Source: Kordiimonas sp. SCSIO 12603
GTDB taxonomy: Bacteria; Pseudomonadota; Alphaproteobacteria; Sphingomonadales; Kordiimonadaceae
Length of the DNA stretch: 64,000 bases
Assembly (NCBI RefSeq): GCF_024398035.1
Contig: NZ_CP073748.1
Location: forward strand, 2,641,520-2,705,519
Direction of reading: 5' to 3'
Under the pieces are notes generated by a model that saw only the letters and a list, made by a program, of their open reading frames with translations, made no database searches and was not told the DNA's origin. Made by a program: the position numbers and the translations under genes. Shown in pieces: positions 5,659 to 18,879 of this stretch (its first letter is position 1; every line of letters starts with the position of its first letter).

Positions 5659-6828
5659 ATGACAGAAAACGCAGTCGATCCGTGCATGGTTTGTAAATCC
5701 ACCAACTTTGATACTATGAAAAGTGTAAAATGGATCATCACTGGCTTAGGCCCACAGGACGTTCATTTTGGCGTTTGTAAAGATTGTGGCCATATCCAGC
5801 AAAATCCGCTGCCATCTATGGAAACTATTGAAGCTTTCTATCTTGAATATTCCAACTATTTTGTACTTGATGAAAACTATACTCCCCCACCCAAAGCACA
5901 ACTATTTACTACTAAGCATATGCTTTCTTCCGCAAATCGACTAATGCCGAATAAAGGCAAGCTGTACGAAATTGGCTGCGGTTCCGGTATTCACCTGCAC
6001 TATTTCAAACAAGACGGCTGGGACGTTGCAGGTTGTGAGCCATCTAGAGATACTGGGGCGCAAGCGCAAAAGCTTTTAGGTGATTGTATTTCATTAGGTT
6101 TCGCACACGAATGCTTAACTGGGCAGGAAAAATATGATGTAATTTTATTGAGCGGAGTACTGGAACATGTTCCTGCACCTCACGATTTAATAAAAATTGC
6201 CTACGACCACTTGAAAGATGATGGGTTGTTTATTTGCCAGGTACCATGCGCCAGACAACCCCATCTCTTCTGCCCCGGCTGGTTGGCCCTTGAACATCTT
6301 TCGTATTTCTCAACAGAGATATTGACACGAGTACTAGAGGAAAATGGTTTCCAGGCTCAGGAAGTTATTCTTGATGATACGCTTTCCGCTTACCCAAGCA
6401 TATCGGCTGCCTGCAGAAAGGCAGACCTTTATTCTGGTCCACAGCCGAAGCATCACAATATGTACTCGATGAATAAACAGATGATTGAAGATCACCTGAG
6501 CATTGATCAACAACACTGGTCAGCTGTTGAAAGTCGTTTCCAACATATTGACGAAGCCTATATTTGGGCCGCAGGTGTTCACACAGCACAGCTTTTCTCC
6601 GAAACAAACATTCTGGAAAAGATAACCATCAAAAATGTTATAGATAGCAGCCCTTTGAAAGTTGGCCACAAACAAGGTCCTTATGAAATTTTAAGTAAAG
6701 ATCAATTCGCAAGCAACTATAACGGCGAATATGTCATCATCTCCTCTCATCATTTTGAGCTGGAGATTGCGGCAGGCTTAAAAGAGATGGGAATTTCAGA
6801 AGACAAAATCATTCTCTTATATAATTAA
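5659..6828 (+). CDS. Zinc-ribbon SAM-dependent methyltransferase (C-methyltransferase type)
   Basis: The chain has an N-terminal Zn-ribbon (CMVCKS and CKDCGH, residues about 9-44), a class I methyltransferase core with SAM motif LYEIGCGSG (about 103-111) and acidic block DVILLSGVLEHV, and a C-terminal region (from about 285) resembling the C-terminal domain of sugar C-methyltransferases. Length 389 suits this three-part architecture. An AAGGA site precedes the ATG. Its 3' end overlaps the convergent gene by four bases. It lies between two nonulosonate operons on the opposite strand, so modification of a nucleotide sugar is plausible; the substrate is not known. Confidence 0.75.
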   Translation: MTENAVDPCMVCKSTNFDTMKSVKWIITGLGPQDVHFGVCKDCGHIQQNPLPSMETIEAFYLEYSNYFVLDENYTPPPKAQLFTTKHMLSSANRLMPNKGKLYEIGCGSGIHLHYFKQDGWDVAGCEPSRDTGAQAQKLLGDCISLGFAHECLTGQEKYDVILLSGVLEHVPAPHDLIKIAYDHLKDDGLFICQVPCARQPHLFCPGWLALEHLSYFSTEILTRVLEENGFQAQEVILDDTLSAYPSISAACRKADLYSGPQPKHHNMYSMNKQMIEDHLSIDQQHWSAVESRFQHIDEAYIWAAGVHTAQLFSETNILEKITIKNVIDSSPLKVGHKQGPYEILSKDQFASNYNGEYVIISSHHFELEIAAGLKEMGISEDKIILLYN

Positions 6829-8570
6829 GAGCTCGCCTTCAAAAGCATACTAATTTGATGAGCAAATCTCTCTGGAGCTTTGCTCATTTTGGTTGAATAG
6901 TTGATAAAACACTCACTCATTTCAGTGTTAGCCGACATGAAAGAAACAGCATTCACGGCCTCCTCAACTGAAGGATAGAATGTTTCAGGCATATGTGTTT
7001 TGAGATAGGTTTGCTCTTCATTAGTCGCCGCACCGATAACATCGAAACCTACTGTATTTACACCAGCTTTAATCGCTTCAAAGAAGCTCACTCCATATTG
7101 GCAAAGAACCATATCACTTGCTGATATCAATTGAGGGATATTCACCGGGGCTTTCAATATCTTAAAAACTGAGTTGTCTACTGCAGGCACAGATGGTGGT
7201 TGAGCATAACTTCCTTGCACCCACTGAATTTCAAATGTGTCACCAATCTTTCCAACAAGCAATTCAGGAAGCCATGCACTCAGCTTCGCAGGATCACTTC
7301 CTCCTGTAAGAACTAAGAGTTTCTTAACGCCACCTTCACGTTTCATCTTCGGGAAGGTGCGTAGTAAATATGTATCCCAACCATATGAAATGGCATCTGC
7401 ATTATTTTTCTGGCGGTCTTTAGGCAGGTAAAAAGAAGGAACCCAGTTATGATCAAACATATCTTCATAGTTCTTGCCAAAATCAACACCTACCAAAGGT
7501 TTCAATAGGCTTTTAGCTTTTAACAACTCAGCTAGATCATCACTTAAACTTTTAAGATCAAAGATACAAAGATCAGCTGCTTCCGATGTATTCAAAACTA
7601 CTGAGCTAGATAACCGTTGAACCCAAAGATGATCAATCAAATCCAAATCATCAAATTCAACTGGGTCTCCCTGAATAATCAATCGCACTTTCGCACTTAA
7701 TCGATCCTGTAAAATGGTAGCCGCAGCCATCATACGCGACAGATGCCCTAATCCGGCATCTTTCCCAGCTTCCGCATAAATACTAATGGACGGAGATTTA
7801 TCTTCTACACCTTTTTGTCGAACAAAACCGTTCATAGCTCGTAGATCGCCATCCTTGGATAACTGTTCAATCACCCATTTCAGGTCAACAATATCCTGCC
7901 CACGATCAAGAGAACTCCATCTAGAGTATACTTCTCGCATGAATCTGTAATCAGTTGGTGTATCTACTGAAATTCTATGCTGAATACTGCTGTATATCTC
8001 ATCCTCATCAACATAGGCGATCTGCTGGGGTGCAACTTTACCAAGGCTATGATACACAGCACCAATATGCTCTCGCTCAAAGGGCAACTCAGCACAAGCA
8101 ACCATTTGATCCCAGAAGGAACGACGATAAACATCAAACCCCTCATGGATATATTTTTGCTCAGGCGGCAAGGGAGAAAGCTGAACTAAATCAACAGAGT
8201 GTTTGTTCTTTATGGCTTTCAGTTTATTATTAATGGTTTCTGGCTCTATCAGCGGACAATCACCACAAACATAGAGCAACACATCAGCGTCAGCTTTTTG
8301 AACCACAGCATCTATACGTCCAACAAGATCATCCACATCGCCAGTGTGCGCATAACAATCAACGCCACTAGACAAAGCCCATTCTTTTAGAGGGATATTA
8401 TAATCGTCTGCGGTTGTTGCGATAATGATATCATCAATCAATTCAACCTGTTGCAATCTCTTTACAATATGGCTGATCATTGGCTCGCCAGCCAATGACA
8501 ACAAGTGTTTTCGGGGCAATCGTGAAGAATTTAACCGAGCACCAATAACTGCGATTATTTTTTCAGCCAT
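6825..8570 (-). CDS. Cytidylyltransferase (SpsF-like) fused to PseG-like glycosyltransferase/hydrolase domain
   Basis: Residues 1-240 are a nucleotidyltransferase of the CMP-KDO/SpsF type, with IAVIGARLNSSRLPRKHL at the N-terminus and YVCGDCPLIEP in the core. From about residue 262 a second domain begins (SISIYAEAGKDAGLGHLSRM), typical of PseG, the UDP-sugar hydrolase of pseudaminate synthesis; LVLTGGSDPAKLS and CQYGVSFFEAIKAG are also PseG-like. The fusion therefore combines release of a UDP-linked precursor and CMP activation of the acid, which flank the NeuB step. It overlaps the neuB-like gene by 16 bases. PseG normally has an N-terminal His in the GxGH block; this is present in GLGHLSR. 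The precise sugar is unresolved. Confidence 0.8.
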   Translation of the reverse strand: MAEKIIAVIGARLNSSRLPRKHLLSLAGEPMISHIVKRLQQVELIDDIIIATTADDYNIPLKEWALSSGVDCYAHTGDVDDLVGRIDAVVQKADADVLLYVCGDCPLIEPETINNKLKAIKNKHSVDLVQLSPLPPEQKYIHEGFDVYRRSFWDQMVACAELPFEREHIGAVYHSLGKVAPQQIAYVDEDEIYSSIQHRISVDTPTDYRFMREVYSRWSSLDRGQDIVDLKWVIEQLSKDGDLRAMNGFVRQKGVEDKSPSISIYAEAGKDAGLGHLSRMMAAATILQDRLSAKVRLIIQGDPVEFDDLDLIDHLWVQRLSSSVVLNTSEAADLCIFDLKSLSDDLAELLKAKSLLKPLVGVDFGKNYEDMFDHNWVPSFYLPKDRQKNNADAISYGWDTYLLRTFPKMKREGGVKKLLVLTGGSDPAKLSAWLPELLVGKIGDTFEIQWVQGSYAQPPSVPAVDNSVFKILKAPVNIPQLISASDMVLCQYGVSFFEAIKAGVNTVGFDVIGAATNEEQTYLKTHMPETFYPSVEEAVNAVSFMSANTEMSECFINYSTKMSKAPERFAHQISMLLKASS

Positions 8571-9421
8571 TCTTGCCTGACCTCTATTAAAGGGCGTAGC
8601 CCATCACTGGGATCAGCCCGCCAGGGCCGGTCACCTATCTCAGCGGCGGTTGGCTTCTTTTGGCCGTCTCCATCTGCAGCCTGTAGACGTTTGCGCCCAT
8701 CGATTACGGCTTTCATCTCGTGAGGCAACCAGCAATGTCCGGCTTTATACTCTGCTCCTTGTTCATCCAAATCTAGATGAAATTCAATAGCTGTGGCTTC
8801 ATATCTATCTATAGCACGATTAACAATCGCACTATCGCGGCTATGATCGGACCACCCCACAGGAAGCCCTGTTGCCTCGCGAATAGTTTCAATCGCTGCA
8901 AGATTACAGCTATCCGCTGGGGCCGGATACCCAGAAACACAGTGCAATAATGTTAAATGTGTTCCCCCGGCCTTTTGAAAAACTTCAACGGCATGTGAGA
9001 TCTCGCTTAAGTCTGCCATCCCTGTTGATAAAATAAGCGGCTTGCCAGTTCTCGCACACTCTGAAATCAAATCATCCCACAACAATTCGTATGAGGCTAT
9101 TTTGTAGAAATCGACATATGGCTCCAGAATGCCCACGGCATCCAGAAAAAAAGGCGTGCAGGAAAACTGGATGCCGCATTGCGTGCTAACACTCTTCAAT
9201 TCAGGCAAGAATTCTTCGGGTAACTCCCACTCAACACGCTTTCGGTGCTCCTCACTTCGTTCCAAAATTTCGGAGGCAAAAAGTTGATCAATCTTAAACA
9301 ATTGAAATTTAACCGCCTGGCAGCCCATTTCAGCAGAAGCTTGGATGAACTTGCGTGCTCTATCTATTGATTTAGCGTGATTACTGGATACTTCAGAAAT
9401 AAACAATGGCAGTGCAGACAT
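8555..9421 (-). CDS. NeuB/PseI-type nonulosonate synthase lacking the SAF domain
   Basis: A 288-residue NeuB-like TIM barrel: FISEVSSNHAKSIDRA, AVKFQLFKIDQLFA, LLHCVSGYPAPADSCNL, VGWSDHSRDSAIV and AIEFHLDLDEQGAEY. The chain ends with DPSDGLRPLIEVRQEWLKK, where canonical NeuB and PseI proteins (about 340-350 residues) would continue into a C-terminal SAF/antifreeze-like domain. The frame is intact and overlaps both neighbours (TAATG with the TPR gene, 16 bases with the fusion gene), so it is not an obvious truncation. By position it is the candidate synthase for the sugar put on flagellin. The missing SAF domain may change substrate choice or oligomer contacts. Confidence 0.8.
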   Translation of the reverse strand: MSALPLFISEVSSNHAKSIDRARKFIQASAEMGCQAVKFQLFKIDQLFASEILERSEEHRKRVEWELPEEFLPELKSVSTQCGIQFSCTPFFLDAVGILEPYVDFYKIASYELLWDDLISECARTGKPLILSTGMADLSEISHAVEVFQKAGGTHLTLLHCVSGYPAPADSCNLAAIETIREATGLPVGWSDHSRDSAIVNRAIDRYEATAIEFHLDLDEQGAEYKAGHCWLPHEMKAVIDGRKRLQAADGDGQKKPTAAEIGDRPWRADPSDGLRPLIEVRQEWLKK

Positions 9422-11277
9422 TACTTAAGCCCTAACTTATGCTGAATAACGCCAGATGTCTTTTCCACAATCTTGTACCAATCTTCGCCTTTCTCAGCGA
9501 CAACAGTATGCCCTGCCCGAACAAACGGTACTTTCCCACCTTCATTACCAAATAACCACCATGGTTCAGAAGTTGACATAATCAAGGTTTCAGTTCCTAG
9601 GGCCATTGCAAACATCGCGGGTGCAGATACACATGACAACACGAGATCACAATTCGCCATAATACCTAAGTTCGCTTCTATATCCTTTTTCAGATCAACA
9701 CCTTCAAGGTTATGTACCTTGATACCAAAACGGTCCTCAAATTCCTGTAATTCGTCAGAACACTCATCATATTGAAGATTGACGAAATCCACTTGATCTT
9801 TAAACGCTTCGAATGGTCTAAAATGTTTAACGGAGCTGTAGATATAGCTTCGTGTAAGACTCTTGTTACCACTACGCCAAGCGAAACCAATTTTTGGCTT
9901 ATCACTTATTTCATCAAGTTTTTCTTTAAATTTTTTCTTTAATTCAGGACACACAATCAAGTTATCTTCACCAGAAAACTTAACGTCTTCAGGTTTTTTC
10001 CAGAAAAACTTGGGAGCGCTGGCGAGTGGGATTGCGTAGTCTACATCCAACTCTCCATCTTTGATCATTTGTTGCGCCTTCGGGAAACTACGGTATCTAT
10101 ATCCTTGGCGAATGACATCCGACAGAGGGCTAACAATCGCCTCAGGATATGATCGTTCGTAAATACTGGTTAAACGAGGCTCACAGCCAATAACTAACTG
10201 TCCAGCTTCTTTTTCCAGTGAACGGAAGAAGTTACCCCACATGACTTCATCGCCAATTCCCTGCTCGGCTAAGAGAAGTACTTTTTTACCTTTTAGAGGC
10301 TGGCCATCCCAGATCGGTAGTTTATGTGTATATATCTGAGATTGATTATGGTGCCGTGAAGTATCCATACGATACTCATAGTGCTCCCAAGCCTCTTCTA
10401 ATTTACCTAGGAAAAAGTATAGCACACTGAGCCCCAGGCGTGGCTCTGGCGACTTAGGATTTAATTCAATGGACTTTAAATCTGCCTCAACAGCCAAATC
10501 CCACTCGCCCATCTGCGTATAACTCATGGCAAGATTGCTATAAATCTTAAAATCATTCGGGCTTAAACGTATCGCCTCTTTAAAAAAGACCACACTCTCT
10601 TCGGCACCGTCTCTAGCTCTTACTTGGGTCGCAAGCACATTCCACAGATCAGAGTTTTCCGGAAATACAGGAATAATACCCTGCAGCATCTGGATACTTT
10701 CATCATAGCGCTCCTCAGCTGAATATGCCGTTGCCAAATTTACATAATGGCGTGCCTCTCTAGGCTGCATGCTAATCAGAATATTTCCTATTTTAACAGC
10801 AACATCATAAATACGCATATTAAGTGCGAGATTCATAATAACAGACACAATGTCCGGTGTTGGTGCATGAAACTTAAGGGCGCGTTCAATAACCAATATC
10901 GCTTTATCGCGCACACCAACAGAATTCAGGCAGTGCGCCAGAACCGTCAATAAATCCAGATCGTTAGGTAAATATTCCCAAGCTTCTAAAAAATACGGCA
11001 GAGCTTTATCAAAGCTATCTTTTTCAACCAGCCTACGTCCTTTATTCAAGGATTTTTGTAACTCTTTTACCTGCTTACCTGTCAGTGATTTTTGCGGATT
11101 ATTGTGAAATTCCAAATCGGAAGATATACCATTTACAACTGATGACACATCTCTACCGTCCAACAGATCAGGCACTTGCAACCCATCAGCCGCGAGCGGA
11201 TCATCAGGCAATTTGACCGCCTCCTCGGTTATAATGATCTCATCCATGAGAGCTTCATCATTTTTCACAGGCTGCAT
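9421..11277 (-). CDS. TPR-repeat glycosyltransferase, FlmG-like flagellin glycosyltransferase candidate
   Basis: The first two thirds are tetratricopeptide repeats (for example LLTVLAHCLNSVGVRDKAI, SNLAMSYTQMGEWDLAV, SNLATAYSAEERYDES-type helices). After WDGQPLKGKKVLLLAEQGIGDEVMW the C-terminal third is GT-B-like, with GFAWRSGN and a final CDLVLSCVSAPAMFAMALG block as in TPR-linked sugar transferases. This architecture and size match Caulobacter FlmG, where TPRs bind flagellin and the GT domain adds pseudaminate. The neighbouring NeuB, the CMP-activating fusion and six flagellins support that job. ATG 11277 has a strong GGGAGA ribosome site; a TTG 54 bases further upstream is rejected as start. 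Confidence 0.72.
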   Translation of the reverse strand: MQPVKNDEALMDEIIITEEAVKLPDDPLAADGLQVPDLLDGRDVSSVVNGISSDLEFHNNPQKSLTGKQVKELQKSLNKGRRLVEKDSFDKALPYFLEAWEYLPNDLDLLTVLAHCLNSVGVRDKAILVIERALKFHAPTPDIVSVIMNLALNMRIYDVAVKIGNILISMQPREARHYVNLATAYSAEERYDESIQMLQGIIPVFPENSDLWNVLATQVRARDGAEESVVFFKEAIRLSPNDFKIYSNLAMSYTQMGEWDLAVEADLKSIELNPKSPEPRLGLSVLYFFLGKLEEAWEHYEYRMDTSRHHNQSQIYTHKLPIWDGQPLKGKKVLLLAEQGIGDEVMWGNFFRSLEKEAGQLVIGCEPRLTSIYERSYPEAIVSPLSDVIRQGYRYRSFPKAQQMIKDGELDVDYAIPLASAPKFFWKKPEDVKFSGEDNLIVCPELKKKFKEKLDEISDKPKIGFAWRSGNKSLTRSYIYSSVKHFRPFEAFKDQVDFVNLQYDECSDELQEFEDRFGIKVHNLEGVDLKKDIEANLGIMANCDLVLSCVSAPAMFAMALGTETLIMSTSEPWWLFGNEGGKVPFVRAGHTVVAEKGEDWYKIVEKTSGVIQHKLGLK

Positions 11278-11502
11278 ATTTTGTCTCCCTACCCGGTACA
11301 AATTACCAGCTAACCAGGTATTTTCTCCCAAACTTCGGCGGTTTGGTCACTATATTTGTATCTATCGAAGATTACTGCAAAGCAAATGCCAAGAAAATAC
11401 TAGCATTTTCAAATCATATTTCCTTATGATATAAAGACTTAGTTTACTTTATTCTGATTTATTGGAATTCTAACGGGCAGAATTAGCTCCGGGGAGGCAT
11501 GT

Positions 11503-11898
11503 ATGGCACTGAAGCTGTCGTTAAAACCAGACGAAAAACTCGTCATAAATGGCGCAGTTATTGCTAATGCAGATAGACGCACAACATTGATTGTCCATAA
11601 CAAGGCATCAATACTGCGGGAAAAAGATATTATGCAGGAGGATGAAGTAGACACACCGGCACGCCGTATCTACTTCCCTATCATGCTTATGTATATGGAT
11701 CAGCAGAAGACTGATACTTATTACGAAGAATTTATGAAGAGAATGACAGAGTTCATGGCAGTAATAACCACCCCTGAAGCTATCAATCTCTGTGTTAAGA
11801 TTAGCAAAGATGTGATGGAAAAGAACTTCTATCGCGCTTTAATGAACTGTAAAAAGCTGCTAGCTTTTGAAACAAGCAGATTGAATATGCAGGAATAA
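11503..11898 (+). CDS. flbT: Flagellin translation regulator FlbT
   Basis: At 131 residues the protein matches FlbT in length and sequence: MALKLSLKPDEKLVINGAV at the N-terminus, then an RTTLIVHNKASILREKDIM block and a helical C-terminal half. In Caulobacter FlbT acts after transcription on flagellin mRNA, through its 5' leader, and lowers its translation or stability until a basal body is made. Here it begins a plus-strand flagellar cluster, 33 bases upstream of flaF, with a GGGGAGG ribosome site. The six flagellin leaders downstream carry repeated hairpins that are candidate targets. Confidence 0.93.
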   Translation: MALKLSLKPDEKLVINGAVIANADRRTTLIVHNKASILREKDIMQEDEVDTPARRIYFPIMLMYMDQQKTDTYYEEFMKRMTEFMAVITTPEAINLCVKISKDVMEKNFYRALMNCKKLLAFETSRLNMQE

Positions 11899-11931: not shown

Positions 11932-12342
11932 ATGTCATATCAAGCTTATAAAACAGCGCAAAACACGACAGAGTCAGCGAGTCAAACCGAGTACAGGCTT
12001 CTTGCGCAGGTTACTAATGCCCTTATGACAGCTAAAGATAAAGAATACAGCGGCGTCCAACTCGTAGAAGCTCTTGATTGGAACAGGAGAGTTTGGTCAG
12101 TTTTCGCTGCAGATTGTGGCGCTAAAGGCAACCAGCTCCCTCATCAACTACGCGCCAATATTATCTCGCTTTCTATCTGGGTTTCAAAACATTCTTCCAA
12201 AGTCATGCGCAAACAAGCCAAGCTGGATGATTTGATCAACATAAACCGCACGATTATGGAAGGCTTGGCGGATCAAGCTAAACTTCAAGCTAAAGCCAAC
12301 GCCGGCGCATCAGCCCCCACCAGCATTAATTCTACACTTTAA
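11932..12342 (+). CDS. flaF: Flagellin biosynthesis regulator FlaF
   Basis: The 136-residue protein is FlaF: YKTAQNTTESASQTEYRLLAQVTNAL, the LVEALDWNRRVWSVFAADC core and the LRANIISLSIWVSKHSSKVM helix are family hallmarks. FlaF is needed for flagellin synthesis or secretion in alphaproteobacteria and functionally opposes or partners FlbT. The Ala-rich tail after about residue 115 is probably unstructured. The gene follows flbT closely and is probably co-transcribed with it, while the flagellins that follow have their own promoters. Confidence 0.93.
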   Translation: MSYQAYKTAQNTTESASQTEYRLLAQVTNALMTAKDKEYSGVQLVEALDWNRRVWSVFAADCGAKGNQLPHQLRANIISLSIWVSKHSSKVMRKQAKLDDLININRTIMEGLADQAKLQAKANAGASAPTSINSTL

Positions 12343-12502: not shown

Positions 12503-12518
12503 TGGCATAATTTATGCA
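12503..12518 (+). promoter_or_regulatory. Sigma-54 promoter of flagellin gene 1
   Basis: TGGCATAATTTATGCA has the -24 GG and -12 GC with the required ten bases between them. The predicted start of transcription is near 12529, about 60 bases before the ATG, which is normal for late flagellar genes. Confidence 0.75.
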
Positions 12519-12527
12519 TCTAATGGT

Positions 12528-12583
12528 TTGGCAGCAAAATGCAGCCAAGGACAAAATGTCCGCCAAAACTCTCAGAATGGAGA
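12528..12583 (+). promoter_or_regulatory. Structured 5' leader of flagellin gene 1 (two A-loop hairpins and a Shine-Dalgarno hairpin)
   Basis: The first hairpin (12528-12548) pairs TTGGC/GCCAA and GC/GC around loop AAAAT, with an A-A mismatch. The second (12549-12561) is GGAC-AAAAT-GTCC. The Shine-Dalgarno GGAG lies in TCTC-AGAATG-GAGA (12570-12583). The first hairpin begins at the predicted first transcribed base. Recurrence in all six flagellin leaders supports function; the ligand is unknown (FlbT is a candidate). Confidence 0.6.
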
Positions 12584-12589
12584 TGAAAA

Positions 12590-13417
12590 ATGGCGTTTTC
12601 TGTAAACACCAATGCAGGTGCCTTTGCCGCCCTGCAAAATTTGAATCAGACTCAATCAGAGCTGAGAACTACTCAAACACAGATTAATACTGGCCTACGG
12701 GTCGCCTCCGCTAAAGACGATGCTGCGACTTTTGCAATCGCACAAACTCTGCGCGGCGAGGTTTCAGGCCTTCAGGCAGTATCTTCTTCTCTTGACCGTG
12801 CACAATCCACACTAGATGTGGCAATCGCGGCAGGGGAAGCTGTGTCTGATCTATTAATCGAACTTAAAGAAAAAGCGGTTGCTGCGAAAGACTCCGGTCT
12901 CGACACATCAAGCCGAAATTCTTTGAACGATGACTTTAAGCAACTTCGCGATCAGATTACATCTATCGTGCAAAATGCTGAATTCAACGGCACTAACGTA
13001 GTAAATGCCGGTGGAGATGCTGTTGTCGCAATTACAAACGACACAGGCAGCAACACCATTACCATTGCTGCGCAAGACCTTTCTCTTTCGAGCACTAACG
13101 TCACAATTACCTCTTCGCAGGAAATTAGTACAGCTACGCTTGCAGCTGATGCAGTGACAAAAATCGAAGCCTCAATTGCGAATGTGAACACTTCACTTTC
13201 AGCTTTGGGTTCAGGCTCTAGTCGAATTGAACTTCAACAGAACTTTGTGAATTCTCTTTCTGACTCGATTGAAGTCGGCATCGGTAACCTTGTTGACGCC
13301 GATCTTGCAGAGACAAGTGCTAACTTGCAATCACTTCAGGTACGACAACAGCTCGGCCTGCAAGCGCTTTCGATTGCAAATCAGGCCCCATCAACAGTTC
13401 TAGGATTGTTCCGATAA
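12590..13417 (+). CDS. Flagellin 1
   Basis: A 275-residue short flagellin. N-terminal D0/D1 (MAFSVNTNAGAFAALQNLNQTQSEL) and C-terminal D1/D0 (GIGNLVDADLAETSANLQSLQVRQQLGLQALSIANQAPSTVLGLFR when joined) are the polymerising helices; the middle (about 135-185) is Ser/Thr-rich and variable, a likely glycosylation surface. Flagellins carry no cleaved signal and leave by the flagellar export apparatus. Residues 1-160 are nearly identical to flagellin 3, at DNA level too. The gene has its own sigma-54 promoter, structured leader and downstream terminator. Confidence 0.95.
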   Translation: MAFSVNTNAGAFAALQNLNQTQSELRTTQTQINTGLRVASAKDDAATFAIAQTLRGEVSGLQAVSSSLDRAQSTLDVAIAAGEAVSDLLIELKEKAVAAKDSGLDTSSRNSLNDDFKQLRDQITSIVQNAEFNGTNVVNAGGDAVVAITNDTGSNTITIAAQDLSLSSTNVTITSSQEISTATLAADAVTKIEASIANVNTSLSALGSGSSRIELQQNFVNSLSDSIEVGIGNLVDADLAETSANLQSLQVRQQLGLQALSIANQAPSTVLGLFR

Positions 13418-13441
13418 ACAATTCTTTAACGAACAAAGTAG

Positions 13442-13466
13442 AGAGCCCTACGGGGCTCTTTTTTTT
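13442..13466 (+). terminator. Intrinsic terminator of flagellin gene 1
   Basis: AGAGCCC-TACG-GGGCTCT is followed directly by a run of eight T. It closes the flagellin 1 transcript 25 bases after the stop codon. Confidence 0.9.
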
Positions 13467-13485
13467 ATGGTATTTACTTCCTCTA

Positions 13486-13512
13486 CGGCAACTATTTCCG
13501 GCACTTTTTACC
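13486..13512 (+). promoter_or_regulatory. Upstream regulatory elements of flagellin gene 2 (two GGCA-N7-CC copies)
   Basis: CGGCAACTATTTCCG (13486-13500) and GGCACTTTTTACC (13500-13512) lie next to each other, about 90-115 bases before the predicted start of transcription. They share the GGYA-N7-CC pattern of the other flagellin upstream regions. Confidence 0.5.
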
Positions 13513-13573
13513 GCTTCTCACTCAACGGGTGACCCAGCACTAAAATAAACCATACATTTCAATAAGTTAAGAC

Positions 13574-13589
13574 TGGCACATCAATTGCC
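13574..13589 (+). promoter_or_regulatory. Sigma-54 promoter of flagellin gene 2
   Basis: TGGCACATCAATTGCC is a near-perfect match to the TGGCAC-N5-TTGC consensus. Predicted start is near 13600, 42 bases before the ATG, shorter than for the other flagellins. Confidence 0.85.
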
Positions 13590-13602
13590 ATTAGGTGAGG
13601 CA

Positions 13603-13635
13603 GAGCAAAAGGCTCACGAAATTCTCAAAAGGAGA
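13603..13635 (+). promoter_or_regulatory. Structured 5' leader of flagellin gene 2 (A-loop hairpins)
   Basis: GAGC-AAAAG-GCTC (13603-13615) begins about three bases after the predicted start. A second hairpin, TCTC-AAAAG-GAGA (13623-13635), contains the Shine-Dalgarno GGAG. This leader has one 5' hairpin where most siblings have two. Confidence 0.55.
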
Positions 13636-13641
13636 CACCCA

Positions 13642-14469
13642 ATGGCTTTTTCAGTAAACACAAATGCCTCTGCATTATCAGCACTTCAAAACCTGAATGG
13701 CACTAATGCAAGGTTGAGTACTATTCAGACTCAAATTAACACAGGACTTAATGTGTCTAGCGCAAAAGACAATTCAGCAGTATATGCCATCGCGCAATCA
13801 TTGCGCGCTGAAAATGCTGGTCTGTCTGCCGCTAGCGCCTCTATTGATCGCGCACTATCTACTATTGATGTAGCGATCGCAGCAGGCGAAGCTGTTTCTG
13901 ATCTGTTGATCGAACTGAAAGAAAAAGCTGTTGCAGCCAAAGATGCTGGCCTCGACACTGCAAGTCGCGCGTCTCTGAACAACGACTTCATTCAACTACG
14001 TGATCAAATTACATCGATCGTAAACAACGCTGAATTTAACGGCACCAATGCCGTTGAAAACAACGGTGACCCGATCATTGCGATCACAAATGACGATGGC
14101 TCCAGCCAAATTAGCGTAGCACCTCAAAACCTATCGCTATCTGGCTCCAACGTTGCTCTTACAGTAGCTCAAGAGATCAACACAGCTGCACTTGCGTCCG
14201 CTGCTGTTGATAACATTGAAAGCTCCATTCAAAATGTGAACTCTGTTCTTTCTAATCTTGGCTCTAATGCAAATCGCCTAGAGCTACAGAAAAACTTTGT
14301 TTCACAACTGTCAGACACAATTGAAATTGGTATCGGTAACTTAGTTGATGCCGATCTTGCTGAATCTTCTGCTGAACTGCAGTCATTGCAGGTGCAGCAG
14401 CAGCTTGGTCTGCAGGCGCTTTCAATCGCCAACCAGGCTCCACAGTCTGTACTAAGCCTATTCCAGTAA
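13642..14469 (+). CDS. Flagellin 2 (most divergent copy)
   Basis: A 275-residue flagellin. ATG 13642 is chosen because it follows GGAGACACCCA and aligns with the N-termini of the five siblings; the open frame extends upstream to 13585 but that would start inside the promoter. It differs most from the others: N-terminus NASALSALQNLNGTNARLST, NAKDNSAVYAIAQSLRAE-type changes in D1, a variable middle SSQISVAPQNLSLSGSNV, and a final LFQ where the others end LFR. It may have a distinct place in the filament, for instance near the hook. Its 3' hairpin lacks a T-run. Confidence 0.95.
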   Translation: MAFSVNTNASALSALQNLNGTNARLSTIQTQINTGLNVSSAKDNSAVYAIAQSLRAENAGLSAASASIDRALSTIDVAIAAGEAVSDLLIELKEKAVAAKDAGLDTASRASLNNDFIQLRDQITSIVNNAEFNGTNAVENNGDPIIAITNDDGSSQISVAPQNLSLSGSNVALTVAQEINTAALASAAVDNIESSIQNVNSVLSNLGSNANRLELQKNFVSQLSDTIEIGIGNLVDADLAESSAELQSLQVQQQLGLQALSIANQAPQSVLSLFQ

Positions 14470-14480
14470 AATACTGGCCC

Positions 14481-14504
14481 ACCGAGCGGGTTCGCCCGCT
14501 CGGT
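14481..14504 (+). terminator. Strong hairpin after flagellin gene 2, no T-run
   Basis: ACCGAGCGGG-TTCG-CCCGCTCGGT forms a perfect ten-base stem with a UUCG tetraloop, 12 bases after the stop. It is followed by ACACCTGC, not T, so it is more likely an mRNA 3'-end stabiliser or a factor-dependent end than a classical intrinsic terminator. Confidence 0.55.
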
Positions 14505-14510
14505 ACACCT

Positions 14511-14565
14511 GCGCAAAAAATACCTACCCTGGCGGCATATTTTTCCATACCCTGCAAAAAATACC
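14511..14565 (+). promoter_or_regulatory. Upstream regulatory elements of flagellin gene 3
   Basis: GGCATATTTTTCC (14534-14546) fits GGYA-N7-CC. It is flanked by two near-identical copies of GCAAAAAATACCTACCC (from 14513 and 14554), whose reverse complement GGTATTTTTTGC is a variant of the same motif. The elements lie about 115-170 bases before the predicted start. Confidence 0.5.
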
Positions 14566-14653
14566 TACCCCAACCAGATATTACCGAAAGGTTAATATTG
14601 ATATTTATCATTACAAATCAAATACATAACTGAAAAACATCTGCAATACAAAA

Positions 14654-14669
14654 CGGCCTAATAATTGCA
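14654..14669 (+). promoter_or_regulatory. Sigma-54 promoter of flagellin gene 3
   Basis: CGGCCTAATAATTGCA keeps GG and GC ten bases apart. The -24 box is weaker (GGCCT instead of GGCAC). Predicted start is near 14680. Confidence 0.65.
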
Positions 14670-14681
14670 TTGATCATTTTC

Positions 14682-14735
14682 GAGGTGAAACCTCACCAGC
14701 AAAATGCTGGAAATTCATAATCTCAGAATGGAGAT
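14682..14735 (+). promoter_or_regulatory. Structured 5' leader of flagellin gene 3
   Basis: GAGG-TGAAA-CCTC (14682-14694) begins two bases after the predicted start. CCAGC-AAAAT-GCTGG follows at 14696-14710. The Shine-Dalgarno is in ATCTC-AGAATG-GAGAT (14720-14735), with five pairs. Confidence 0.6.
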
Positions 14736-14740
14736 GAAAA

Positions 14741-15568
14741 ATGGCGTTTTCCGTCAATACTAACGCAGGTGCTTTTGCTGCCCTGCAAAATTTGAATCAG
14801 ACTCAATCAGAGCTGAGAACAACTCAAACACAGATTAATACTGGCCTTCGGGTAAGTTCTGCTAAAGATGATGCGGCGACTTTCGCTATCGCGCAAACCC
14901 TGCGTGGTGAAGTTTCAGGTCTTCAGGCGGTATCTTCCTCTCTGGACCGCGCTCAGTCTACTTTGGACGTTGCGATCGCAGCCGGTGAAGCGGTATCTGA
15001 TCTATTGATTGAACTAAAAGAAAAAGCGGTTGCTGCGAAAGACTCCGGTCTCGATACATCAAGCCGTAACTCTCTGAACGATGACTTCCAACAGCTTCGT
15101 GACCAGATTACATCAATTGTACAGAATGCGGAATTCAACGGCACAAATGTTGTTGAAAACGGCGGCGATGCAGTTGTTGCAATTACAAACGACACAGGCA
15201 GTAACACCATTACAATTGCGGCACAGGATCTTTCCCTTGGTGGCGCAAACGTAACAATTGGTTCTGCACAGTCTATCGGCACGCAAGATGCAGCCTCTGT
15301 AGCAGTTGCTAACATCGAAAGCTCAATTCAAAATGTAAACACAGCTCTATCCGCACTTGGCTCAGGCTCAAGCCGGATTGAGTTGCAGCAAACATTCGTG
15401 AATCAGCTTTCAGATGCGATTGAAGTTGGTATTGGTAACCTTGTTGATGCAGATCTTGCTGAAACAAGTGCTAACCTGCAATCACTTCAGGTACGACAAC
15501 AGCTGGGCCTTCAGGCGCTTTCGATTGCCAACCAGGCTCCATCGACAGTACTTGGTCTATTCAGGTAA
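14741..15568 (+). CDS. Flagellin 3
   Basis: A 275-residue flagellin with the common D0/D1 ends. It is a mosaic: the first 160 residues are almost those of flagellin 1 (SSLDRAQSTLDVAIAAGEAV, SGLDTSSRNSLNDDF), whereas the variable block SLGGANVTIGSAQSIGTQDA is shared residue for residue with flagellin 4. The C-terminus returns to the flagellin 1 form (APSTVLGLFR). It has its own promoter, leader and terminator. As in all copies, no Cys is seen and the middle is rich in Ser, Thr and Asn. Confidence 0.95.
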   Translation: MAFSVNTNAGAFAALQNLNQTQSELRTTQTQINTGLRVSSAKDDAATFAIAQTLRGEVSGLQAVSSSLDRAQSTLDVAIAAGEAVSDLLIELKEKAVAAKDSGLDTSSRNSLNDDFQQLRDQITSIVQNAEFNGTNVVENGGDAVVAITNDTGSNTITIAAQDLSLGGANVTIGSAQSIGTQDAASVAVANIESSIQNVNTALSALGSGSSRIELQQTFVNQLSDAIEVGIGNLVDADLAETSANLQSLQVRQQLGLQALSIANQAPSTVLGLFR

Positions 15569-15594
15569 TCCAATTTAAATTGAGTAACACTAGT

Positions 15595-15616
15595 AAAGGC
15601 CCTGCGGGGCCTTTTT
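15595..15616 (+). terminator. Intrinsic terminator of flagellin gene 3
   Basis: AAAGGCCC-TGCG-GGGCCTTTTT follows the stop by 26 bases and ends in a short T-run. Confidence 0.85.
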
Positions 15617-15620
15617 CTAT

Positions 15621-15674
15621 GGAAAAAATTTCCTGCCATCTAGGCACTTTTTGCACCACCCGGCACTTTTTTCC
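15621..15674 (+). promoter_or_regulatory. Upstream regulatory elements of flagellin gene 4
   Basis: Three related elements are packed here: GGAAAAAATTTCC (15621-15633), TAGGCACTTTTTGCA (15641-15655, last base pair variant) and CGGCACTTTTTTCC (15661-15674). They lie about 105-160 bases before the predicted start of transcription. Confidence 0.5.
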
Positions 15675-15754
15675 CACCTGACCGTTAATTAAAATTTTAT
15701 CAAAATTATCTACAACTAATTGAAATATAATAATTTTATATCATTTTCTAAAGT

Positions 15755-15770
15755 TGGCACAACAAATGCT
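15755..15770 (+). promoter_or_regulatory. Sigma-54 promoter of flagellin gene 4
   Basis: TGGCACAACAAATGCT has the full TGGCAC box and GC at the right spacing. Predicted start is near 15781, 63 bases before the ATG. Confidence 0.8.
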
Positions 15771-15781
15771 AGTTTGTCCTC

Positions 15782-15837
15782 GAAGCAAAAGGCTTCCCCC
15801 AGCAAAAAGCTAGGGCAACATATTCTCAGAATGGAGA
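15782..15837 (+). promoter_or_regulatory. Structured 5' leader of flagellin gene 4
   Basis: GAAGC-AAAAG-GCTTC (15782-15796) begins one base after the predicted start. CCCAGC-AAAAA-GCT(A)GGG follows (15798-15815, one bulged A). The Shine-Dalgarno hairpin is TCTC-AGAATG-GAGA (15824-15837). Confidence 0.6.
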
Positions 15838-15843
15838 TACAAA

Positions 15844-16671
15844 ATGGCGTTTTCCGTAAACACCAATGCAGGTGCGTTTGCTGCACTGCAAAACCTTAAT
15901 CAGACTCAATCAGAGCTGAACACTACTCAAACACAGATTAACACTGGTCTTCGCGTAAGTTCTGCGAAAGATGACGCTGCGACTTTCGCCATTGCACAAA
16001 CACTGCGCGGTGAAGTTTCCGGTCTTCAGGCCGTATCAGCCTCTCTTGACCGTGCCCAATCATCCCTTGACGTAGCGATTGCAGCTGGTGAAGCTGTATC
16101 CGATCTTCTCATCGAACTGAAAGAGAAAGCTGTTGCAGCCAAGGATAACGGCCTTGATACTGCAAGCCGTACATCACTGAATGACGACTTCCAGCAGCTT
16201 CGTGATCAGATTACCTCTATCGTACAAAACGCTGAATTTAACGGCACAAATGCAGTTGAAAACGGCGGTGATGCAATTATTGCTATTACCAATGACACAG
16301 GCAGTAACACCATTACCATTGGCGCTCAGGATCTATCTCTAGGCGGTGCGAACGTAACAATTGGTTCTGCACAATCTATCGGCACTCAAGATGCCGCTTC
16401 TGTAGCAGTTGCCAACATCGAAAGCTCAATCCAGAATGTAAACACAGCCCTTTCTGCTCTTGGTTCCGGCGCGAACCGTGTTGAACTTCAGCAGAATTTT
16501 GTGAACTCACTTTCTGATTCAATTGAAGTTGGTATTGGTAACCTTGTTGATGCGGATCTCGCTGAAACAAGTGCGAACCTACAGTCACTTCAGGTACGTC
16601 AGCAGCTTGGCCTACAGGCGCTTTCAATCGCTAACCAGGCTCCACAGTCTGTACTATCACTCTTCCGATAG
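15844..16671 (+). CDS. Flagellin 4
   Basis: A 275-residue flagellin. Its variable middle (SLGGANVTIGSAQSIGTQDA) equals that of flagellin 3, while its C-terminal third (GANRVELQQNFVNSLSDS and APQSVLSLFR) equals flagellin 5. The N-terminal part has the SELNTTQTQINTGLRVSSAK form also found in flagellin 5. This patchwork suggests repeated exchange between copies. It is preceded by an intact sigma-54 promoter and three upstream elements. Confidence 0.95.
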   Translation: MAFSVNTNAGAFAALQNLNQTQSELNTTQTQINTGLRVSSAKDDAATFAIAQTLRGEVSGLQAVSASLDRAQSSLDVAIAAGEAVSDLLIELKEKAVAAKDNGLDTASRTSLNDDFQQLRDQITSIVQNAEFNGTNAVENGGDAIIAITNDTGSNTITIGAQDLSLGGANVTIGSAQSIGTQDAASVAVANIESSIQNVNTALSALGSGANRVELQQNFVNSLSDSIEVGIGNLVDADLAETSANLQSLQVRQQLGLQALSIANQAPQSVLSLFR

Positions 16672-16691
16672 TCTTTAAATCCAGCAAAATC

Positions 16692-16712
16692 AAAGGCCCT
16701 TTGGGGCCTTTT
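16692..16712 (+). terminator. Intrinsic terminator of flagellin gene 4
   Basis: AAAGGCCC-TTTG-GGGCCTTTT ends in four T and lies 21 bases after the stop. Confidence 0.8.
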
Positions 16713-16850
16713 CATAGAACAAGTAATCTGCTTATCCAGCTTAAGCTCTGTTTTCTTTTTGCTTCTTTCTTACTGCCTTCAAAAGCGGTCAAAAAAGAAC
16801 GAAAAAAAACAAAACGCTGGCAAAGTTATAGACATTTTTTATGTACATAA

Positions 16851-16866
16851 CTGCACATTACCTGTA
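16851..16866 (+). promoter_or_regulatory. Degenerate sigma-54 promoter position of flagellin gene 5
   Basis: Aligned on the ATG and on the shared leader, the promoter position reads CTGCACATTACCTGTA. The -24 GG is TG and the -12 GC is GT, so both invariant pairs are altered. The spacing to the ATG (74 bases) is the same as for flagellin 4. No GGNA-N7-CC element was found in 16672-16850. The gene is probably poorly served by sigma-54 or uses another sigma factor. Confidence 0.45.
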
Positions 16867-16877
16867 ATATAAAAGAT

Positions 16878-16934
16878 GAAGCAAAAGGCTTCCCCCGGCA
16901 AAAAGCCAGGGTCACATATTCTCAGAATGGAGAA
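16878..16934 (+). promoter_or_regulatory. Structured 5' leader of flagellin gene 5
   Basis: GAAGC-AAAAG-GCTTC (16878-16892) is identical to that of gene 4. CCCGGC-AAAAA-GCC(A)GGG follows (16894-16911), where a G-C pair change keeps the stem. The Shine-Dalgarno hairpin TTCTC-AGAATG-GAGAA is at 16919-16934. Compensating change in the stem (AGC/GCT to GGC/GCC) supports the RNA structure. Confidence 0.65.
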
Positions 16935-16939
16935 ACAAA

Positions 16940-17767
16940 ATGGCGTTTTCAGTAAACACCAATGCAGGTGCTTTTGCTGCCCTGCAAAACCTTAATCAGA
17001 CTCAATCAGAGCTGAACACTACCCAGACACAAATTAATACTGGCCTTCGCGTAAGTTCTGCGAAAGATGATGCAGCGACTTTCGCTATTGCACAAACTCT
17101 ACGCGGCGAAGTTTCTGGCCTTCAGGCGGTATCTTCGTCTCTGGACCGCGCCCAATCATCTCTTGATGTTGCGATTGCGGCTGGGGAAGCTGTATCTGAT
17201 CTTCTCATTGAACTTAAAGAGAAAGCGGTTGCCGCTAAGGATAACGGCCTTGACACTGCAAGCCGTACATCTCTGAACGATGATTTTGAACAGCTTCGTG
17301 ATCAGATCACATCGATTGTACAGAACGCTGAATTTAACGGCACAAATGCGGTTCAAAACAATGGTGACGCAATTATTGCCATCACCAACGATACAGGCAG
17401 CAACACAATTACAATTGCTGCGCAAGACTTGTCTCTAGCAGGTACAAATGTAGCCATTACCGCCACACAGGATATCTCTACGCAAGATCTTGCATCTGCT
17501 GCTGTTGCTGATATTGAATCCTCTATCGAAAATGTAAACACAGCTCTTTCTGCTCTTGGTTCCGGCGCGAACCGTGTTGAACTTCAGCAGAATTTTGTGA
17601 ACTCGCTTTCTGATTCAATTGAAGTTGGTATTGGTAACCTTGTTGATGCAGACCTCGCTGAAACAAGTGCGAACCTACAGTCACTTCAGGTACGTCAGCA
17701 GCTTGGTCTACAGGCGCTTTCAATCGCCAATCAGGCTCCACAGTCGGTGCTATCACTCTTCCGATAG
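16940..17767 (+). CDS. Flagellin 5
   Basis: A 275-residue flagellin, closest to flagellin 4 at both ends (SELNTTQTQINTGLRVSSAK, GANRVELQQNFVNSLSDS, APQSVLSLFR). The variable middle differs (SLAGTNVAITATQDISTQDL) and resembles that of flagellin 6 in its second half. The coding sequence looks fully functional, but its promoter has lost the sigma-54 consensus bases. It could be expressed under different conditions or be a silent donor for gene conversion. Confidence 0.95.
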   Translation: MAFSVNTNAGAFAALQNLNQTQSELNTTQTQINTGLRVSSAKDDAATFAIAQTLRGEVSGLQAVSSSLDRAQSSLDVAIAAGEAVSDLLIELKEKAVAAKDNGLDTASRTSLNDDFEQLRDQITSIVQNAEFNGTNAVQNNGDAIIAITNDTGSNTITIAAQDLSLAGTNVAITATQDISTQDLASAAVADIESSIENVNTALSALGSGANRVELQQNFVNSLSDSIEVGIGNLVDADLAETSANLQSLQVRQQLGLQALSIANQAPQSVLSLFR

Positions 17768-17789
17768 AAAGCAATTAGCCAAAATATAT

Positions 17790-17815
17790 GAGAGCCTTTC
17801 GAGGCTCTCCTTTTT
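17790..17815 (+). terminator. Intrinsic terminator of flagellin gene 5
   Basis: GAGAGCCT-TTCG-AGGCTCTC followed by CTTTTT, 22 bases after the stop. Confidence 0.85.
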
Positions 17816-17880
17816 AGGAATTTTTTTCCTAGCTAATGCACTTAGTAGGCAACTATGTGCTAATAAGGCAATTATTGCCT
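17816..17880 (+). promoter_or_regulatory. Upstream regulatory elements of flagellin gene 6
   Basis: AGGAATTTTTTTCCT (17816-17830) and AAGGCAATTATTGCCT (17865-17880) both fit GGNA-N7-CC and both are inverted repeats; AGGCAAT-T-ATTGCCT is perfect. They lie about 115-175 bases before the predicted start. Confidence 0.55.
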
Positions 17881-17966
17881 AGTTTTATTTTAGACCTAGT
17901 AATTGGAAAACATCAATTAAACCATAAGATTCAAAGCTTTATTTACCGACATTTTAATCAGCACTT

Positions 17967-17982
17967 TGGCTCATCTTTTGCA
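17967..17982 (+). promoter_or_regulatory. Sigma-54 promoter of flagellin gene 6
   Basis: TGGCTCATCTTTTGCA has GG and GC at ten-base spacing and the TTGCA -12 box. Predicted start is near 17993. Confidence 0.78.
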
Positions 17983-17993
17983 TAGTATTAGGT

Positions 17994-18044
17994 GGACAAA
18001 AAGTCCTGCAGGCAAAATGCCTGACATAATACTCCAAAAAGGAG
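17994..18044 (+). promoter_or_regulatory. Structured 5' leader of flagellin gene 6 (three A-loop hairpins)
   Basis: GGAC-AAAAA-GTCC (17994-18006) begins one base after the predicted start. CAGGC-AAAAT-GCCTG is at 18009-18023. The Shine-Dalgarno itself is in CTCC-AAAAA-GGAG (18032-18044), so all three hairpins share the A-loop form. Confidence 0.62.
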
Positions 18045-18051
18045 AAGCAAA

Positions 18052-18879
18052 ATGGCTTTTTCGGTAAATACCAATGCAGGCGCTTTTGCAGCCCTGCAGA
18101 ACTTGAATCAGACTTCGTCTGAATTGACGACGACGCAAAACCGGATTAACACTGGTTTACGCGTTAGCTCGTCCAAGGATGATGCAGCAACATTCGCTAT
18201 CGCACAAACATTGCGTGGCGAAGTAGCTGGTCTTTCAGCGGTATCTGCCTCGCTCGATCGTGCACAATCCACTTTGGATGTTGCAATTGCGGCCGGTGAA
18301 GCAGTATCGGACCTCCTAATTGAGCTCAAAGAAAAAGCGGTTGCTGCAAAAGACTCTGGTCTTGATACAGCAAGCCGTAGTTCTTTGAATGATGATTTCG
18401 AGCAACTACGTGATCAAATTACCTCTATTGTACAGAACGCTGAATTTAACGGCACCAATGCTGTTGAAAACAACGGTGATGCAATTGTTGCTATTACAAG
18501 CGATGACGGCGGTAATACCATTACGGTTGCAGCTCAGAACTTGTCACTTTCAGGCTCCAATGTCGCACTAACGTCGTCGCAAGATATCTCTACACAGGCT
18601 CTTGCTTCTGCGGCGGTAACGGACATTGAAAACTCAATCGCAAACGTTAACACTTCGCTTTCTCAACTTGGTTCCGGTGCGGCTCGTATCGAACTCCAAA
18701 AAGAGTTTGTGAACCAGCTATCAGATACCATTGAAGTCGGTATCGGTAACTTGGTGGATGCAGACCTTGCAAGTGAATCTGCAAACCTGCAGGCCTTGCA
18801 GGTAAGACAACAGCTTGGTTTACAAGCCTTGTCGATCGCAAATCAGGCACCATCAACGGTTCTTGGTCTATTCCGATAG
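18052..18879 (+). CDS. Flagellin 6
   Basis: A 275-residue flagellin, with more private changes than copies 1, 3, 4 and 5: SSELTTTQNRINTGLRVSSSK near the N-terminus, SLSGSNVALTSSQDISTQAL in the variable middle (start shared with flagellin 2), and DLASESANLQALQ in D1-C. It ends APSTVLGLFR like copies 1 and 3. It is the last flagellin before flaG. Its 3' hairpin has no T-run, so transcription may continue into flaG. Confidence 0.95.
   Translation: MAFSVNTNAGAFAALQNLNQTSSELTTTQNRINTGLRVSSSKDDAATFAIAQTLRGEVAGLSAVSASLDRAQSTLDVAIAAGEAVSDLLIELKEKAVAAKDSGLDTASRSSLNDDFEQLRDQITSIVQNAEFNGTNAVENNGDAIVAITSDDGGNTITVAAQNLSLSGSNVALTSSQDISTQALASAAVTDIENSIANVNTSLSQLGSGAARIELQKEFVNQLSDTIEVGIGNLVDADLASESANLQALQVRQQLGLQALSIANQAPSTVLGLFR

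Follow-up and report, generated by a model that had tools for sequence, protein, structure and literature searches.

A-rich loop hairpins in the flagellin leaders of Kordiimonas: a conserved RNA element and candidate target of FlbT

Six flagellin leaders downstream of flbT and flaF

The stretch of Kordiimonas sp. SCSIO 12603 DNA analysed here (64,000 nucleotides (nt), hereafter the window, part of a complete 3.85 Mb genome) carries flbT, flaF and, downstream of flaF, six flagellin genes and a FlaG-family gene (Pfam). The subject of this study is a set of short hairpins in the leaders of the six flagellin mRNAs (Table 1). FlbT is known to act on flagellin leaders, and the fljK leader of Caulobacter is the RNA reported as its site of action. 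An initial annotation, made from the letters of the window alone, had placed flbT directly upstream of the flagellins, and the PF07378 match confirms it. FlbT is present in one copy in this genome (profile search, E 2.4e-45) and is 98% identical to FlbT of K. laminariae.

All six leaders contain short stems that close a five-base loop, nearly always C-AAAAN-G, near the predicted sigma-54 start. A scan of the 75 nt upstream of each ATG for ARAAN-loop hairpins with at least four unbroken pairs found nine, at least one per leader; 200 dinucleotide shuffles averaged 0.24 and never exceeded 2. The short stems and five-base A-rich loops that had been described in all six leaders are thus present in six of six. 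The match is not perfect throughout: an A.A mismatch interrupts the first stem of gene 1, the first loop of gene 3 reads TGAAA, and in genes 4 and 5 the second stem carries a bulged A between three inner and three outer pairs. The compensated change between genes 4 and 5, from AGC/GCT to GGC/GCC, is also present, and the sister strain K. laminariae has GGC/GCT, a wobble intermediate.

Table 1. Genes, predicted promoters and leader hairpins of the flbT-flaF-flagellin locus (window coordinates).
Feature	Position	Strand	Description	Basis
flbT	11503..11898	+	proposed RNA-binding regulator	Pfam PF07378, E 7e-46
flaF	11932..12342	+	FlbT partner	Pfam PF07309, E 4.4e-36
Gene 1 sigma-54 box	12503..12517	+	TGGCATAATTTATGC	GG-N10-GC search
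Gene 1 hairpin 1	12528..12548	+	loop AAAAT, stem broken by one A.A mismatch	fold, sequence
Gene 1 hairpin 2	12549..12561	+	GGAC-AAAAT-GTCC	hairpin scan
Gene 1 Shine-Dalgarno hairpin	12570..12583	+	TCTC/GAGA	fold, sequence
Flagellin gene 1	12590..13417	+		Pfam Flagellin_N + Flagellin_C
Gene 2 sigma-54 box	13574..13588	+		GG-N10-GC search
Gene 2 hairpin	13603..13615	+	GAGC-AAAAG-GCTC, sole upstream hairpin	hairpin scan
Gene 2 Shine-Dalgarno hairpin	13623..13635	+	TCTC-AAAAG-GAGA	hairpin scan
Flagellin gene 2	13642..14469	+	divergent paralogue, own leader type	Pfam; flagellin tree
Gene 3 sigma-54 box	14654..14668	+	CGGCC..TTGC, weaker	GG-N10-GC search
Gene 3 hairpin 1	14682..14694	+	GAGG-TGAAA-CCTC	sequence
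Gene 3 hairpin 2	14696..14710	+	CCAGC-AAAAT-GCTGG	hairpin scan
Gene 3 Shine-Dalgarno hairpin	14721..14734	+	TCTC/GAGA	sequence
Flagellin gene 3	14741..15568	+		Pfam
Gene 4 sigma-54 box	15755..15769	+		GG-N10-GC search
Gene 4 hairpin 1	15782..15796	+	GAAGC-AAAAG-GCTTC	hairpin scan
Gene 4 hairpin 2	15798..15815	+	CCCAGC-AAAAA-GCT(A)GGG, 3 inner + 3 outer pairs, bulged A	sequence
Gene 4 Shine-Dalgarno hairpin	15824..15837	+	TCTC/GAGA	sequence
Flagellin gene 4	15844..16671	+		Pfam
Gene 5 hairpin 1	16878..16892	+	GAAGC-AAAAG-GCTTC	hairpin scan
Gene 5 hairpin 2	16894..16911	+	CCCGGC-AAAAA-GCC(A)GGG, 3 inner + 3 outer pairs, bulged A	fold, sequence
Gene 5 Shine-Dalgarno hairpin	16920..16933	+	TCTC/GAGA	fold, sequence
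Flagellin gene 5	16940..17767	+		Pfam
Gene 6 sigma-54 box	17967..17981	+		GG-N10-GC search
Gene 6 hairpin 1	17994..18006	+	GGAC-AAAAA-GTCC	hairpin scan
Gene 6 hairpin 2	18009..18023	+	CAGGC-AAAAT-GCCTG	hairpin scan
Gene 6 Shine-Dalgarno hairpin	18032..18044	+	CTCC-AAAAA-GGAG	hairpin scan
Flagellin gene 6	18052..18879	+		Pfam

Stem pairing, strand and position of the element

The window and 28 Kordiimonadales loci gave 85 flagellin leaders (a further locus, L046, yielded no flagellin). ARAAN-loop hairpins of at least 4 bp numbered 144 and lay in 77 of the 82 leaders free of N, whereas shuffling gave a mean of 2.85 and a maximum of 7 (60 runs). A loop-anchored test, in which C-ARAAN-G was located with no demand on the stem, found 125 motifs in 76 of the 85 leaders; 437 of 500 stem cells pair, compared with a mean of 311.8 and a maximum of 334 when the 3′ arms were redealt 500 times. 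This test is fairer than the alignment of 33 two-hairpin leaders (A1), since the rows of A1 were selected for stems of at least four pairs and are hence biased. In A1, 94.6% of positions are paired (slid controls, at most 54.4%), covariation is 0.551 versus 0.297, two-sided changes occur in four of the five pairs of each upstream stem, and neither the closing C-G pair nor the AAAA varies in the two upstream loops. Against shuffles, two of the five measures made on A1 fail: 'further pair types' is as high in 472 of 500, and the count of pairs changed on both sides in 32 of 500. The Shine-Dalgarno stem is 86.7% paired in A1, with a two-sided change in one of its four pairs; the figure is three of four in A2, an alignment of 28 distinct class-wide rows that was fitted to the covariance model described below and leans toward it. 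What had been noticed among the six genes, that stem bases differ while loops stay alike, thus extends to the 85 Kordiimonadales leaders, in which the loop is kept while the stem letters change in pairs. The leader hairpins are a real RNA element.

Dyad symmetry so close to sigma-54 promoters might also be read at the DNA level. In Caulobacter, FlbD works through ftr sites at the middle and late flagellar genes, and the titles cited in the papers concerned include downstream ftr elements (PMC3930126, PMC3096577). The inverted repeats would then be ftr-like enhancer sites for this sigma-54 activator and not RNA hairpins. However, C-ARAAN-G is found in one orientation, with 140 sense and 0 antisense occurrences in the 85 Kordiimonadales leaders and 50 against 1 in 140 leaders of FlbT-bearing genomes elsewhere in the class. 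Position tells the same way: 131 hairpins lie downstream of the sigma-54 -12 box and 0 upstream, and 28 of the 49 hairpin-bearing leaders of FlbT-bearing genomes in the class have no sigma-54 box within 150 nt. The stem letters also vary with pairing kept, unlike those of a DNA half-site. DNA dyads for FlbD are therefore disfavoured by both strand and position, and we regard them as quite improbable.

The first stem starts about 0-3 nt from the +1 predicted by the box (the stems of genes 1 and 3 being read by eye in the same register). This had been claimed for every gene; it holds for five, but gene 5 (ATG at 16940) has no GG-N10-GC box between 16855 and 16880, where a degenerate TG-N10-GT can be seen by eye in the same register. 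The K. laminariae copy of gene 5 likewise lacks a sigma-54 box. In 72 Kordiimonadales leaders a box is accompanied by an upstream hairpin; 61 of them have the start of the first loop at +5 to +8 and the other 11 at about 21 to 26, although leader lengths span 42 to 91 nt (42 to 99 nt over the 79 Kordiimonadales leaders with a box); in the class the loop is at +5 to +8 in 14 of 21. The element therefore keeps its distance to the 5′ end, not to the start codon. A first hairpin right at the 5′ end, in short and long leaders alike, would suit a plain stabiliser that guards an abundant mRNA against 5′-end-dependent decay, with no protein reading the loop. Such a stabiliser does not need fixed loop letters, a fixed C-G closing pair or second and third copies, nor does it need loop letters that switch with the protein present, as described in the next section. 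As an explanation of the hairpins we consider it unlikely; stabilisation could be an added effect.

The flagellin genes themselves merit some remarks. Their coding sequences (window 12590-18879, L029-L057) cluster by genome in many genomes, as in concerted evolution, while the leader types follow gene position. The second flagellin gene forms a separate orthologous group with a one-hairpin leader in the Kordiimonadales tree. Flagellins located upstream of the flbT cluster (L036:2772, L039:927, L051:8939) form a separate clade and have a sigma-54 box and no hairpin of this type. Elsewhere in the Kordiimonas genome (L129:2265; G000:C1 near 1480264) there is an extra divergent flagellin, MAFSVLTNAGAFAA, with a C-AGAAC-G hairpin at -62 and no covariance-model match. 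Within the window, C-ARAAN-G look-alikes at 23161, 23337 (in an open reading frame (ORF) of 497 amino acids) and 33674 (in an opposite-strand ORF) are not leaders, because they lie inside ORFs. Beside flbT, on the minus strand (6825-11331), Pfam identifies a NeuB-family protein, a cytidylyltransferase and a TPR protein, which resemble the Caulobacter flagellin glycosylation genes neuB and flmG, the likeness to FlmG being putative.

Loop letters and the presence of FlbT or CsrA

A covariance model of the leaders, named as a check in the initial annotation, was built from 33 two-hairpin Kordiimonadales leaders; stem pairing is kept and matches extend beyond the genome of origin. There, its matches at E<=5 are exactly the six leaders, that of gene 2 being weak (E 0.059; 150 of 1733 first-look candidates were scored). 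In the class search (E<=0.01) matches occur in 18 of 386 other genomes, and FlbT is present in 17 of these 18 as against 142 of 387 genomes overall. Of 20 match places outside the genome of origin, 17 precede a flagellin start (L072, at a contig end, was read from sequence, and L077 is likewise cut by a contig end), two precede an operon of a small ORF and flbT, and one (G344) precedes neither. In a phylum sample of 299 genomes there is one match (G692, E 0.007) beyond the genome of origin and one of its family. An Rfam cmscan of the window at gathering thresholds returned three tRNAs only, so the leader element matches no Rfam family. In G190 and G270 (L080:1500-1803; L076) the element and a sigma-54 box stand before an 81-amino-acid ORF, the end of which overlaps the flbT start, an arrangement that fits a candidate control by FlbT of its own operon. 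Brucella FlbT is called self-regulating in the accessible part of one paper (PMC8781033).

Do the loop letters follow the protein? The discovery set comprised leaders around flbT from 68 FlbT-bearing genomes, 52 of which gave 104 leaders, and 54 leaders from 29 genomes lacking FlbT; loops of 4 to 6 nt were admitted. C-ARAA..-G hairpins were found in 38 of the 104 leaders (30/52 genomes) and, after removal of the genomes with known model matches, in 22 of 72 leaders (18/37 genomes), where 27 hairpins compare with a shuffle mean of 0.75. Only 1 of the 54 leaders from genomes lacking FlbT has one (shuffle mean 0.82). These leaders contain instead 15 C-AGGA-G hairpins, in 13/54 leaders and 10/29 genomes (shuffle mean 0.28, maximum 2), as against five in the FlbT-bearing genomes (5/104 leaders, 3/52 genomes). 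A held-out set was chosen before its leaders had been seen; 2 of its 20 FlbT-bearing regions yielded no flagellin. It gave C-ARAA-G in 11 of 18 FlbT-bearing genomes (11/36 leaders) versus 0 of 17 genomes with CsrA and no FlbT, and C-AGGA-G in 1 of 18 versus 6 of 17, one of the six (G120) lying far upstream at -114. Counted by genome over both sets, ARAA occurs in 41/69 genomes with FlbT and no CsrA versus 1/36 with CsrA and no FlbT, and AGGA in 4/69 versus 15/36.

The same letters emerge when no loop is named in advance and the commonest five-base loops on stems of at least five pairs are tallied. Genomes with FlbT and no CsrA have C-AGAAA-G, C-AAAAT-G, C-AAAAC-G and C-AAAAA-G (T-AGGAA-A being level with the last), and genomes with CsrA and no FlbT have C-AGGAA-G, C-AGGAT-G, C-AGGTA-G and C-AGGAC-G (the last level with two others); ARAAN accounts for 33/127 in the former versus 0/66 in the latter, and AGGAN for 3/127 versus 15/66. 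The two proteins rarely co-occur. Among the 177 flagellin-bearing genomes of a 289-genome sample (G000 and G029-G316, a composition deduced from totals), 97 have FlbT only, 53 CsrA only, 5 both and 22 neither, and CsrA is present in 5 of the 106 FlbT-bearing genomes of the sample.

C-AGGA-G, seen in leaders of genomes lacking FlbT, is the loop of CsrA sites. For RsmE, the available part of one study describes A(N)GGAX on top of a stem that ends in a C-G pair, with a five-base form without N (PMC4005645). As far as that part goes, CsrA/RsmE sites share with the Kordiimonas leaders a short C-G-closed stem, a loop of 5 or 6 nt that begins and ends alike (A..AX) and several copies per leader, one of them at the ribosome site; they differ in the third loop base, G (AGGAX) instead of A (ARAAX), and in their reader, CsrA, which is absent from this genome, where FlbT is found instead. 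Could CsrA be the reader in Kordiimonas as well, binding GGA at the ribosome site with the help of the hairpins? It had been put forward as an alternative because AxGGA occurs at that site, and relatives with CsrA have C-AGGA-G hairpins at the same place. However, PF02599 has 0 matches in the complete genome, in a search that detects the E. coli, B. subtilis and T. maritima controls; CsrA occurs in few FlbT-bearing genomes, as counted above; and the upstream loops AAAAT, AAAAG, AAAAA and TGAAA contain no GGA. The CsrA alternative therefore fails, and CsrA was rejected as the binder in this genome, its chance being close to nil unless a CsrA has escaped recognition. Hfq or a small RNA might also bind A-rich loops: their A-R-N triplets resemble the distal-face motif of Hfq, for which a 2015 review, in the part available, lists Poly(A)/ARN (PMC4347634). 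But the loops have only five bases, with a fixed ARAAN and C-G pair, and they follow FlbT, which Hfq is expected, if only expected, not to do. We judge this very improbable.

The element is also found in leaders of the fljK type, for which action of FlbT has been reported. A search with the N-terminus of what we take to be FljK, in the order of G080, found one genome at 98% identity and others at 84-91%, and on this assumed sequence leaders L194-L198 are called fljK-type. In them GAGC-AAAAT-GCTC precedes a second stem whose loop is identical, so that C-AAAAN-G hairpins stand in tandem, and the neighbouring gene (L195-L197) has CGGGC-AAAAC-GCCCG and CCGGC-AAAAY-GCCGG. The fljK 5′ untranslated region of C. 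crescentus, so identified, and the Kordiimonas leaders have in common their place before a flagellin gene, a genome that encodes flbT and flaF, and the tandem hairpins. What sets Kordiimonas apart is its array of six flagellins, with leaders of three types, and the similar loop on its Shine-Dalgarno hairpin. In the Caulobacter order, the third downstream flagellin (L194-L223), which presumably sits in the place of fljJ, has a hairpin at -66 to -34 in 1 of 21 leaders versus 39 of 47 other leaders. FljJ is described as a regulatory flagellin acting with FlbT in the accessible part of one report (PMC7591256), and its leader may therefore be exempt from the hairpins. The Kordiimonadales flagellin tree gave no placement for this third flagellin, whose sequences are cut by locus ends. 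Plasmid leaders of Azospirillum and Cereibacter have C-AGAAA-G and C-AGAAC-G hairpins, and a Methylobacterium leader has a GAAAAT loop instead; the stretches from Sinorhizobium and Sulfitobacter contained no complete flagellin.

FlbT as the probable reader of the leaders

We propose, with a probability of about 0.7, that the leader is a cis-acting RNA element whose hairpins are recognised by FlbT. The protein would keep flagellin from being translated and so fill the role of CsrA, its loop differing by a shifted letter. The hairpins are probably the grip of FlbT on the message, since they are found in bacteria with FlbT while relatives with CsrA often carry a near-identical loop with other letters. 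The first suggestion, that of a repeated RNA element which FlbT might target, is supported by the paired stem changes, the strand specificity, the class-wide co-occurrence with FlbT and the Caulobacter-type fljK leader. In the proposed model each leader opens at its 5′ end with one or two hairpins that have the loop C-ARAAN-G (in most cases C-AAAAN-G). A weak hairpin built in a similar way (loop ARAAN, ARAANN or the like) comes next and contains the Shine-Dalgarno sequence in its 3′ arm. FlbT, encoded just upstream, would read the 5′-terminal loops and the like loop at the Shine-Dalgarno, probably in several copies per leader. Following the Caulobacter model, several FlbT units might then close the ribosome site, or the message might be steered to decay, and release would follow when the completed hook-basal body allows flagellin export.

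Several observations weigh against this proposal. The Shine-Dalgarno of all six genes had been placed in a small stem, and by sequence such a stem is present in 6/6 leaders; but it has only 4 bp and is missing from the single-sequence minimum free energy fold of some of them, and is therefore the weakest part of the element. With the definition used, 28 of the 69 genomes with FlbT and no CsrA lack such a hairpin, and G186, which has FlbT and no CsrA, carries C-AGGA-G loops in all three leaders. Related genomes are not independent, so Fisher values overstate the association. In addition, Brucella FlbT has been proposed as an activator, according to the accessible part of the 2015 review (PMC4347634).

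If FlbT is the reader, why should two proteins read such similar loops? One tentative answer, which we hold as possible but not as the likelier case, is that FlbT arose from CsrA by remodelling: an ancient beta domain of CsrA type (FlbT residues ~3-43) would have gained a helical part, and its preference would have moved from C-AGGAX-G to C-ARAAX-G. Alphaproteobacteria would then employ one protein or the other for an identical task at the corresponding site of flagellin leaders, and leader loops would have switched with the protein. The strand order of AlphaFold models of FlbT, of low confidence over residues 1-48, resembles that of CsrA. In hhalign, FlbT 3-40 aligns with CsrA 2-45, up to the LRE/HRE motif, with a modest score (E 0.0077 to 0.016 as a single comparison) that was equalled by 7/200, 6/250 and 3/250 column shuffles; among 88 other families the best match of CsrA is FlbT and the second best of FlbT is CsrA. 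Sequence searches of Pfam and PDB with FlbT gave no CsrA match, and Foldseek of the low-confidence models against PDB gave nothing at E<=0.001. A 2016 paper, in the part available, calls FlaF/FlbT possibly 'analogous' to CsrA-FliW (PMC4894983).

While the action of FlbT on flagellin leaders was already known, the class-wide element, its anchoring at the 5′ end and the loop switch with CsrA appear to be new. The available part of the 2015 review gives no FlbT binding motif and treats motif and mechanism as unresolved (PMC4347634), and in the open-access literature we found no description of the motif or of the FlbT-CsrA loop switch, parts of which may be in print. How FlbT chooses flagellin messages becomes, with a short and sharply defined loop that has many natural variants, a question that can be tested in one organism. 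If true, the near-exclusive presence of FlbT or CsrA, together with matching loop letters, would mean that two RNA-binding regulators have traded places while the shape of the target was kept. And if FlbT proves to be a relative of CsrA, a family counted as unrelated would join the best-studied translation repressors of bacteria.

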